Source of the DNA: Bacteroidales bacterium | Lineage (GTDB): Bacteria; Bacteroidota; Bacteroidia; Bacteroidales; JAGOPY01 | Length of the DNA stretch: 64,000 nt | Assembly: GCA_017991835.1 (NCBI GenBank) | Contig: JAGOPY010000010.1 | Coordinates: 1-64,000, forward strand | Direction: 5' to 3' | Shown: one piece after another, positions 12,314 to 14,565 of the stretch | Numbering within the stretch: position 1 is the stretch's first letter | How the letters are laid out: each line of letters starts with the position of its first letter | Program-made: the position numbers and the translations under genes | Notes under the pieces: model-generated | Told to the model about the DNA's origin: nothing | Database searches by the model: none | What the model saw: the letters and a program-made list of their open reading frames with translations, nothing else

Positions 12314-12413
12314 ATGGTTGGGTTTATGGGAGTTTTTTTCCATGAGTGGCTGCAGGGCGTTAAGAACCTGGCAAGTTTGCCCTGCGGCCTTCCTTTTTTC
12401 TTTTCTTTTCTTT

Positions 12414-12451
12414 CACGAAGTTACACGAAGAAGACACGAAGTTTCACGAAG
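12414..12451 (+). repeat. Upstream half of an inverted heptamer array (4 x CACGAAG)
   Basis: CACGAAG occurs at 12414, 12424, 12435 and 12445, i.e. spacings of 10, 11 and 10 bp, about one helical turn each. The last copy ends four bases before the ATG of the GxxExxY gene. The downstream half carries the reverse complement with the same spacing. Confidence 0.9.
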
Positions 12452-12454
12452 AAA

Positions 12455-12835
12455 ATGGTGCAAATGGAATTTGATGATTTATCCCGCAAGATAATAGGCT
12501 GTGCTTTGCAAGTACATAAAATCCTTGGTCCGGGAATGCTGGAATCAGCATATGAAGAATGCCTCGCTTACGAATTGACTTCAACTGGACTAATGATCCA
12601 CAGACAAAAACCAATTCCTGTAATTTATAAGGATATTAAACTTGATTGTGGTTATCGACTTGATTTGCTTGTAGACCAGAAGATAATCATTGAATTAAAA
12701 TCAGTAGAATTATTAGCGCCTGTCCATGAAGCCCAGATTCTGACTTATATGAGGTTTGCAGAAATCAGGTTAGGATTATTGATCAACTTTAATGTGACAT
12801 TTCTAAAGAGTGGTATAAAAAGATATGTTTTATAA
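12455..12835 (+). CDS. GxxExxY protein (PDDEXK-like nuclease fold)
   Basis: About 126 residues from the ATG at 12455 (a second ATG at 12464 is also possible; a longer upstream frame only translates the repeat array). The signature GPGMLESAYEECL gives the family its name. Further on are D and E-x-K in DLLVDQKIIIELK, the usual PDDEXK metal-binding core, and the end INFNVTFLKSGIKRYVL is family-typical. The function of the family is not known; nuclease activity is inferred from the fold. The gene is enclosed by mirrored CACGAAG/CTTCGTG arrays, which suggests that gene and arrays form one unit. Confidence 0.88.
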   Translation: MVQMEFDDLSRKIIGCALQVHKILGPGMLESAYEECLAYELTSTGLMIHRQKPIPVIYKDIKLDCGYRLDLLVDQKIIIELKSVELLAPVHEAQILTYMRFAEIRLGLLINFNVTFLKSGIKRYVL

Positions 12836-12836
12836 C

Positions 12837-12915
12837 CTTCGTGATCCTTCGTGACTCCTTCGTGGATCTTCGTGCAATAAATAGATATAATTCTATTACA
12901 CTAAGTTACACGAAG
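12837..12915 (-). repeat. Downstream half of the inverted heptamer array (4 x CTTCGTG)
   Basis: CTTCGTG occurs at 12837, 12847, 12858 and 12868, again with spacings 10, 11 and 10. The first copy starts two bases after the stop codon. A further direct-orientation CACGAAG is at 12909-12915 within GTTACACGAAGAAAAT, resembling the upstream flank. Confidence 0.9.
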
Positions 12916-12965: not shown

Positions 12966-13166
12966 TCATGTTTCCTTCAAATCTTCCAGAATCTTGCTGA
13001 CATCCTCCTCCGTCGCCGTCAGCTTCTCCTTGCAGATCCTGATCAGCTCCGAAGCCCGCTTAACTTTTTCGGAAAGCGTATCGATCGTGATCTCCCCTTC
13101 TTCTATTTCACCGACGATCAGTTCAAGTTCCTTTATCGCCTCGGAATAGGTAATTTTCTTCTCCAT
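12966..13166 (-). CDS. xseB: Exodeoxyribonuclease VII small subunit
   Basis: 66 residues from the ATG at 13166 (a longer frame upstream only overlaps xseA). Residues 5-60 are the usual acidic, leucine-rich helical hairpin (ITYSEAIKELELIVGEIEEGEI... LIRICKEKLT). XseB subunits wrap the long helices of XseA and are needed for degradation of single-stranded DNA to short oligonucleotides in the cytoplasm. It begins 4 bp after the xseA stop, so the two are translated from one message. Confidence 0.95.
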   Translation of the reverse strand: MEKKITYSEAIKELELIVGEIEEGEITIDTLSEKVKRASELIRICKEKLTATEEDVSKILEDLKET

Positions 13167-13170
13167 TTGA

Positions 13171-14565
13171 TTAATCTTTAATTGATTTGACTTCACTTGA
13201 AATGTCCCCTTTAAACAACCGGGTTGTAAGGATATCCCCCGGTTTTGCCACTGCACTGTCAATTAGTGCTTTTCCGTTGAGATATGTAATGCTGTAACCT
13301 CTTTTCAATACTTGGACCGGATTCAGCAGGTCAATTTTTTGATTCAGATTTTCAAGCTCGCCGGTTTTTAGCCTCAGCAGTTGTTTCACATGCAGACAAA
13401 AACGCTCCGACCGGTTATCCAGGCCGATCCTGCTCTCCCGCAACAGTACTCCCGGCTTGATGGAGAGTTTCAATCCGGCCAGGTTGAGCAGGTGTTTCTG
13501 GCCGGTGATCATGATCCCGGTGCCATCAATCACCGATCCCGATATCTCCACTATCGCCCGCTTTTCATTTCTGACGAGATTGTCCGTTTGTGAGACAAGG
13601 TCCATGCATAATTGTTCCCACTTCTTCTTCTCCTCTTCCAGAAGATCTTTCGCCATTGTTGCCAGACTCTCATGGAGTTCGTTCAGCCTGCCCGAAAAAT
13701 TATGGAACTGCTGAATGATGAAATAAGCGACATCGGTGGGGGTGATCTTGTTGTAACCGGCGATCATTTCCACTACTGTTTCGTTGGTGGAATGCCCGAT
13801 TCCGGTCAGCACCGGCAGCGGGCAAAGAGCGACTTCCCTGGCCAGCATGTAGTTGTCGTAGCAATTCAGCCCGACCTCACCGCCACCACCCCTGATAATG
13901 GTAACCGCATCGAACAGGTGTGCGTTCCGGCCGATAATTTCCATCTGGCTCCGGATTGACTCAACCGCTTTATCCCCCTGGAGCAGCGCTGGAAAAAGGA
14001 CACAACTGATCCCGTAATGCCATGGATTGTTTTCGATGATGCTGATAAAATCGCTGAAGCCCTTGCTTGATTTTACCGAAATGACGGCAATTCTCTTCGG
14101 CAGCTCCGGTAATTCAATCTGCCTGTTCCGATCAAAAAGGCCTTCGTTTTTGAGGCGGGCCAGGGTCTTCATCTTTTCCCGGGCCATTTCGCCAAGGGTG
14201 TACGACGGGTCAATATCGATGATCTGGAGAGAAAGACCGTACACAGCATGAAACCTGACGTACGCCCGGAAGAGTATCTGTATCCCTTCCTTCAGCGGTT
14301 CGCGTGTTATTTTCAGGAAGTTACCATTGATCCTTACGTAGTCGTTAGCCCAGATCGTCCCTCTCAGCTCGGCCTTAACGCTCCCCTTTTCCTTCTCAAC
14401 CAGTGAAGGATAGCAATGACCGCTGGCCTGGTAATAGTTCAGCTTGGCTATCTCGGCTTTGATCCATAACGGTGACCGGAAGTTTTCTTCAAAAACCACC
14501 GTAATCCCTGCCGCGAGCTGCGACAAGGTCATGATTTCCGCTCCGTTCTGATTATTTTCTATCAT
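13171..14565 (-). CDS. xseA: Exodeoxyribonuclease VII large subunit
   Basis: 464 residues. It has the N-terminal OB-fold (LWIKAEIAKLNYYQASGHCYPSL), the catalytic core with the family stretches IAVISVKSSKGFSDF, IIRGGGGEVGLNCYDNYMLARE and TGIGHSTNETVVEMIA, and then the long coiled region and the C-terminal KRGYSITYLNGK segment. With XseB it forms the exonuclease that trims single-stranded DNA in both directions. The length is normal and the gene looks intact. Confidence 0.96.
   Translation of the reverse strand: MIENNQNGAEIMTLSQLAAGITVVFEENFRSPLWIKAEIAKLNYYQASGHCYPSLVEKEKGSVKAELRGTIWANDYVRINGNFLKITREPLKEGIQILFRAYVRFHAVYGLSLQIIDIDPSYTLGEMAREKMKTLARLKNEGLFDRNRQIELPELPKRIAVISVKSSKGFSDFISIIENNPWHYGISCVLFPALLQGDKAVESIRSQMEIIGRNAHLFDAVTIIRGGGGEVGLNCYDNYMLAREVALCPLPVLTGIGHSTNETVVEMIAGYNKITPTDVAYFIIQQFHNFSGRLNELHESLATMAKDLLEEEKKKWEQLCMDLVSQTDNLVRNEKRAIVEISGSVIDGTGIMITGQKHLLNLAGLKLSIKPGVLLRESRIGLDNRSERFCLHVKQLLRLKTGELENLNQKIDLLNPVQVLKRGYSITYLNGKALIDSAVAKPGDILTTRLFKGDISSEVKSIKD

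Follow-up and report, generated by a model that had tools for sequence, protein, structure and literature searches.

Among described systems, the one that the locus analysed here most resembles is that of the REPs, short hairpins with GTAG or CGTC ends, and the RAYTs, which are transposases of the HuH/Y1 (IS200/IS605-like) type (PMC2817692, PMC3116915). The RAYT gene is flanked by inverted REP copies, the repeat and the protein coevolve, and REPs are dispersed extragenically, being abundant where a RAYT gene is present; genomes harbor several divergent, single-copy RAYT genes, each with its own repeat flavour (PMC2817692, PMC3116915). Short repeated words have also been reported in Geobacter metallireducens, whose multicopy heptanucleotide elements were proposed to be regulatory elements or regulator-binding sites (PMC2700814).

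The subject of this report is a gene of the GxxExxY family (TIGR04256/PF13366), enclosed by heptamer arrays within a stretch of 64,000 nucleotides of Bacteroidales DNA, referred to below as the window. A full-text search of open-access PubMed Central found no published description of GxxExxY arrays and no mention of TIGR04256 or PDDEXK_3; in the same corpus, GxxExxY is named only in passing, and PF13366 appears in a microalgae paper. The analysis suggests a self-recognising type of DNA element, hitherto undescribed, that resembles the REP/RAYT system but is unrelated to it.

The GxxExxY locus of the window

The left array (positions 12,414 to 12,451, plus strand) consists of four copies of CACGAAG that begin at positions 12,414, 12,424, 12,435, and 12,445, at a spacing of 10/11/10, separated by the spacers TTA, AAGA, and TTT. 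The right array (12,837 to 12,874, minus strand) is the left one mirrored, with four copies of CTTCGTG that begin at 12,837, 12,847, 12,858, and 12,868, also spaced 10/11/10; the copy numbers and identical spacings of the preliminary description are exact. Three base pairs separate the left array from the ATG at 12,455, and a single base pair lies between the end of the stop codon (12,835) and the right array. These two arrays are the sole chains of at least four identical 7-mers at 9-12 bp spacing within the 64 kb. The window contains 18 copies of CACGAAG, compared with 5.6 expected and a maximum of 12 in 100 shuffles. The spacers of the left and right arms match at 3 of 10 letters by manual count. 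A further, outward-facing half, composed of CACTAAG and CACGAAG joined by tta (CACTAAGttaCACGAAG), is found on the plus strand at 12,899 to 12,915, 24 bp after the right array. Since the right array continues into this half, the stretch from 12,837 to 12,915 resembles a short gene-less palindrome, and the right array also looks like the left half of a gene-less palindrome of the kind present elsewhere in the genome to which the window belongs. The unit adjoins two genes on the minus strand (12,966 to 14,565) whose translations resemble, by eye, the exonuclease VII subunits XseB and XseA; their proximity is probably a coincidence.

The gene itself (12,455 to 12,835, plus strand) encodes 126 amino acids and is a full member of its family, scoring 152.6 bits against TIGR04256 (cut-off 35) and 147 bits against PF13366, PDDEXK_3 (cut-off 22), in profile searches. 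An in-frame ATG at 12,314 is an unlikely start, because reading from there would run through the left array. An AlphaFold2 model built on 75 homologues (mean pLDDT 94) contains a single long N-terminal helix, residues 2-24 (12,458 to 12,526, plus strand), which carries the two positions highlighted by the covariation described below, -18 (D7) and -15 (S10), counted from the first G of GxGxxExxY. The helix is followed by the motif GPGMLESAY and a PD-(D/E)XK core (12,527 to 12,832, plus strand) that includes E30, G66-D70, E80-x-K82, and Q94-x3-Y98. These positions vary little or not at all in an alignment of 75 GxxExxY sequences: D70, K82, and Q94 never change, while E80 and Y98 are present in at least 90%. 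This arrangement, GxxxD...ExK...QxxxY, matches the RecB-type signature. The best PDB folds detected by Foldseek were those of LHK-Exo, lambda exonuclease, the Hjc resolvase, and SSO0001, with probabilities of 0.89-0.99, TM of about 0.5, and no E value below 0.001; no solved structure with a sequence match to the window protein was found. With its active-site signature intact, and with the PD-(D/E)XK fold recovered both in the model and in the PDB matches, the PDDEXK-like core of the preliminary description holds, and GxxExxY is a predicted PD-(D/E)XK nuclease of the RecB/lambda-exonuclease/Cas4-like branch. A relationship to a known anti-phage system was also considered and rejected, with nothing beyond marginal Cas4 profile matches (E 0.011).

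Generality of the arrays and covariation with the protein

GxxExxY loci were gathered from 198 genomes of the window's class, from GTDB genomes that span many phyla (Bacteroidota, Ignavibacteria, Planctomycetota, Chloroflexota, Pseudomonadota, Acidobacteriota, Omnitrophota, and others), and from one viral contig. The gene is present in 130 of the 198 genomes, or two-thirds of those sampled in the class, and in about 16% of the genomes sampled from the phylum to which the Lysobacterales genome L187 belongs. Outside chromosomes it was encountered on that single viral contig, in none of 50,697 phages, and in 8 of 72,556 plasmids, and the idea of phage or plasmid cargo was rejected on these counts.

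A scan that presupposes no word, requiring that a given 7-mer occur two or more times upstream, 9-13 bp apart, and its reverse complement likewise downstream, detected mirrored heptamer arrays at 86 of 168 loci (51%), compared with 2 of 144 control segments taken 600-720 bp away at these loci and 3 of 336 shuffles. Flanking inverted heptamers are thus general in the sense raised by the preliminary description, which had also named GxxExxY genes lacking arrays as contrary evidence. In a looser union with a scan that presupposes the form CRCRRRK, 112 of 186 loci (60%) have an array by either method, whereas the remaining 74 (about 40%) have none that is recognisable, their catalytic motifs being nevertheless intact. 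The CRCRRRK skeleton is common to the words found, among them CACAGAG, CGCAAAG, CACGAAG, CACAGAT, CGCAGAG, CACGGAG, CACAAAG, and CGCGGAG.

The copies had been said to lie on one face of the helix, which stands for the window copy, with its 10/11/10 spacing, but only roughly for the family: the commonest spacing is 9 (149 cases), followed by 10 (105) and 11 (53), and strict helix phasing was rejected as a family rule. The most frequent four-copy patterns are 10-11-10 (15 arms) and 9-11-9 (12 arms), a preference for x-11-x that reads as if such arms were made of two pairs. When the left and right arms of one locus are compared, the heptamers are 93% alike and the spacers 56%; this retention of the heptamers and not of the spacers favours recognition of the duplex by a protein over hairpin formation or RNA pairing.

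Several lines of evidence indicate that word and protein change together. Heptamer labels placed on a tree of 95 proteins change 40 times, compared with 60 when shuffled, and none of 300 shuffles was as low. In addition, four residue-base rules were fixed in advance and applied to 27 further loci, most of them belonging to other phyla. At residue -15 of these held-out loci, T was accompanied by G at base 5 in 7/7 cases and S by A in 15/20, and at residue -18, N was accompanied by A at base 4 in 10/11 and D by G in 6/10. The rule for base 7, which through a numbering slip named residue -8 in place of -7, failed as written, holding at 1 of 8 held-out loci, and the version using column -7 is post hoc; correlates of base 7 are spread along the entire protein in a manner that is not separable from ancestry, which is probably the source of its signal. 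The fourth rule linked base 2 to T at -20; the strongest correlate of that base proved to be a C-terminal residue, +100, and not the helix.

When 121 loci were pooled, the top two columns were -18 and -19 for base 4, and -15 and -14 for base 5, well above the 95th percentile of core columns, and comparison of divergence-matched pairs over about 120 columns again placed -18 first for base 4 (z 6.7) and -15 first for base 5 (z 7.3). Residue N at -18 coincides with A at base 4 in 72 loci and with G in 4, D or E with G in 19 and with A in 12, while T at -15 coincides with G at base 5 in 46 and with A in 2. Well-supported branches offer only 5-6 phylogenetically independent pairs for these two bases, consistent in direction and not significant. 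Covariation of word and protein, the check proposed in the preliminary description, is thus borne out by the tree and by the ranking of columns. It is not a matter of the array translating itself, since the codons for -18 and -15 lie outside the array in nearly all loci, and the pairing of N with A:T and of D or E with G:C appears chemically plausible. It is therefore likely, to the extent that covariation is a guide to binding, that GxxExxY reads the heptamers, and the correlations point to a contribution of the N-terminal half of helix 1 to specificity at bases 4 and 5. One pair of paralogues that are 90% identical (L439 and L446, in genome G007) was called CACAAAG and CGCAAAG, respectively, a difference at base 2 that reflects either a switch made recently or a mistake in the labels.

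Dispersed palindromes and competing explanations

The genome of the window (G000; 3.48 Mb, 76% complete) contains five complete GxxExxY genes and fragments of at least one other, with protein identities of 60% at most among those compared. Each of the six genes has its own flanking word, and four have clear arrays on both sides by scan: CACAAAT at L001, CACGAAG at the window locus, CRCARAG (CGCAAAG-like) at L003, and CACAAAG with gcg spacers at L004. At L005 the word is CACGAAT-like and failed the array scan, and at L006 a CTATGTG-like word was read by eye only. Gene-less palindromes of these words are numerous in the same genome, which contains, in all, 36 CACGAAG pairs and 23 CGCAAAG pairs (controls, 0). 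Of 11 gene-less palindromes checked, 9 overlap no ORF of at least 120 amino acids and the other two overlap gene ends only. The CACGAAG and CGCAAAG palindromes face outward, the reverse of the orientation of the arms that enclose the gene, and several of 12 examined have GAGGTTGTCTCAAAAG-like outer ends. At L042, L043, L044, L050, L052, and L038, which have such ends, the heptamer arrays are nested in an IS-like MITE.

Dispersed arrays were surveyed in the 198 genomes with three words, and at least three phased pairs were found in 63 of 130 gene-bearing genomes compared with 2 of 68 that lack the gene (Fisher 2e-12, with no correction for phylogeny). Genomes in which a CACAGAG-type gene was seen are richer in CACAGAG arrays (p 1e-4), and CACGAAG and CGCAAAG arrays follow the same trend with their matching genes, weakly. 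The preliminary description had taken an equal frequency of the same arrays around unrelated genes as a refutation; most arrays are intergenic palindromes that enclose no gene, but they are concentrated in genomes that carry GxxExxY. Within the class, the number of palindromes per genome ranges from 0 to more than 100. Genome G028 has about 30 CGCAAAG arrays and no detectable GxxExxY gene, an exception that is expected if arrays outlive the gene; these arrays may be a relic or another protein's, and those at L425-L428 have a more elaborate, asymmetric architecture. In G115 (L421-L424) there are 266 CGCAAAG pair matches, many of which are direct, same-strand repeats with conserved flanks and not palindromes.

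Sites without the unit, which the preliminary description suggested looking for, are found in genus g20, where a single intergenic site contains a unit (L108) in three species, G059 among the genomes with GxxExxY there, and lacks it in four. The orthologous site of G626 is clean, with neither the gene nor a heptamer array, which disfavours homing of the unit into its own site at this locus. Three different, unrelated ORFs occupy the site in G189, G128, and G096 (L366, L368, and L369); by eye, one is four-helix-bundle-like and one phosphatase-like, and the site is insertion-prone.

Taken with the covariation, these distributions lead us to favour an explanation in which GxxExxY would bind DNA sequence-specifically, its cognate site being the heptamer array of form CRCRRRK. 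Each member would recognise a variant of its own, bases 4 and 5 being set in part by the N-terminal half of helix 1; the protein may nick or cut DNA at its arrays, and this cutting, together with host repair or copying, may spread or maintain them. The gene between inverted arrays and the dispersed gene-less palindromes would then constitute a REP/RAYT-like system built around a chromosomal, single-copy nuclease gene. The comparison with REP/RAYT is drawn because the gene sits between inverted arrays and because the same arrays are scattered elsewhere without it.

Binding alone would suffice for the covariation, and an autoregulatory operator, by which GxxExxY controls its own expression while the dispersed palindromes serve a global regulator as additional sites and no movement is involved, would suit both the closeness of the arrays to the start and stop codons and the intergenic position of the palindromes in G000. 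An operator does not, however, need a mirrored copy past the stop codon, nor does it call for an invariant nuclease motif; moreover, the gene and both arrays are present or absent as a block between congeneric species, and palindrome numbers differ by as much as described above among genomes of one class. We regard this explanation as rather unlikely.

The inverted arms, and the G626 site that lacks the unit, could also be those of an ordinary mobile element, namely an IS-like transposon with GxxExxY as its transposase and the palindromes as MITEs arisen by internal deletion. This possibility draws further on G059, where about a dozen gene-less copies contain both arms of the L108 unit, spacers included, joined across about 15-17 bp that replace the gene. 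(In the same genome, at L398-L400 and L404, a second miniature repeat, ATCCCGTAGGATA...TATCCAACGGGAT, is inserted inside several heptamer palindromes.) Against it, the genes within a genome are divergent and not multicopy, with paralogues mostly 66% identical or less and one pair at 90%; outer ends differ between loci; and the family is near-absent from viral contigs, phages, and plasmids. No target-site duplication was seen either: at the L108 site the arms are present, the ends are not sharply defined, and the flanks, about 77% identical, are too diverged for a duplication to be read. A transposon of this type is thus quite improbable. The arms are inverted like the ends of a mobile element, as originally proposed, but the divergent paralogues, the want of a readable duplication, and the nesting of some gene-less copies of G000 in IS-like elements do not point to a transposing unit.

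A third explanation takes that nesting as its starting point. The arrays could stem from unrelated MITE or REP families, with GxxExxY hitch-hiking by having inserted there or by using them as target (homing) sites, and in this respect the palindromes' outer ends, GAGGTTGTCTCAAAAG-like in G000, TGATGTTACGCA in G059, and different again in G026, are suggestive. Certain gene-less palindromes, those with the G000 and G059 ends, are embedded in longer miniature elements of IS-like type, so that other transposases may move them. Palindrome orientation varies, being inward in G026, as around genes, both ways in G059, and outward in G000 and some other genomes. Hitch-hiking is nevertheless a doubtful proposition, leaving unexplained why the heptamer tracks residues of the protein's helix, why array number depends on the presence of the gene, and why all these unrelated MITE families should contain CRCRRRK arrays. 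Finally, although heptamers are short and inverted arms could pair, an artefact of chance or of low sequence complexity, or an RNA element of the hairpin or terminator type, is extremely improbable, given that no four-copy 7-mer chain arose in 30 first-order Markov sequences, that the arrays have no Rfam match, that spacers complement each other far less than heptamers, and that chance was rejected by window shuffles, Markov sequences, and displaced and shuffled loci alike.

We therefore return to the sequence-specific nuclease. The preliminary description viewed the gene and arrays as one unit, either mobile or maintained by binding of the encoded protein; since array sequence covaries with the protein, binding is the best reading, and the binding idea is well supported because the fold and motifs are those of a RecB/lambda-exonuclease/Cas4-like PD-(D/E)XK protein. 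That GxxExxY is a sequence-specific PD-(D/E)XK protein with cognate heptamer arrays, the two forming a REP/RAYT-like system, appears on sequence grounds somewhat probable. Cutting at the arrays, and their spread or maintenance by it, would be a further step, and a mobile or REP/RAYT-like role would be compatible with these observations. A bolder version, in which a PD-(D/E)XK family convergently performs the RAYT job, the N-terminal helix of each member setting which array it recognises by a code, readable from covariation, that links -18 to base 4 and -15 to base 5, and the gene-less palindromes being spread and maintained by the protein and keeping it in turn, is put forward tentatively, its prospects being less than even. 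The arrays provide a family with no assigned function, distributed over many bacterial phyla, with a substrate and a testable role, and they explain intergenic repeats that recur in the genomes of groups that carry GxxExxY. Should the residue-base correlations hold, a protein of only 126 amino acids would possess a readable DNA code.

Comparison with known systems

The window protein lies fully within TIGR04256/PF13366, and the papers searched contain no account of its arrays. By predicted fold and by the motif set GxxxD, ExK, and QxxxY, it resembles RecB, lambda exonuclease, and Cas4, as well as Hjc, and it differs from them in its small size and in an added N-terminal helix that is correlated with specificity. 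IS-derived MITEs share with the GxxExxY palindromes the property of being short, dispersed, gene-less derivatives of a gene-bearing unit; in gene-bearing GxxExxY units, however, no common terminal repeat or target duplication was seen, and these units do not occur as near-identical multiple copies per genome. The elements of Geobacter metallireducens are similarly dispersed and comprise four or five heptamer copies, but their words are GGGACCG and MTYCTGA, and the passages of that report that concern them do not name an associated protein (PMC2700814).

The likeness to REP/RAYT extends further. In both systems the gene is flanked by two inverted repeat copies (at 51% of GxxExxY loci, or 60% by the looser union), repeat abundance tracks the gene, paralogues are divergent and single-copy, and repeat and protein appear to coevolve, with too few independent contrasts for significance in the case of GxxExxY. 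The differences concern the components themselves: GxxExxY matches only the PDDEXK_3 and GxxExxY profiles and has a PD-(D/E)XK model, not HuH/Y1, and its repeat consists of spaced CRCRRRK heptamers with poorly pairing spacers, not a hairpin with GTAG or CGTC ends. Because both protein and repeat architecture are unrelated, the GxxExxY system is not a member of the REP/RAYT family, and the lifestyle that the two have in common, that of a nuclease whose cognate palindromes are dispersed, may have evolved separately in nucleases of unrelated fold.
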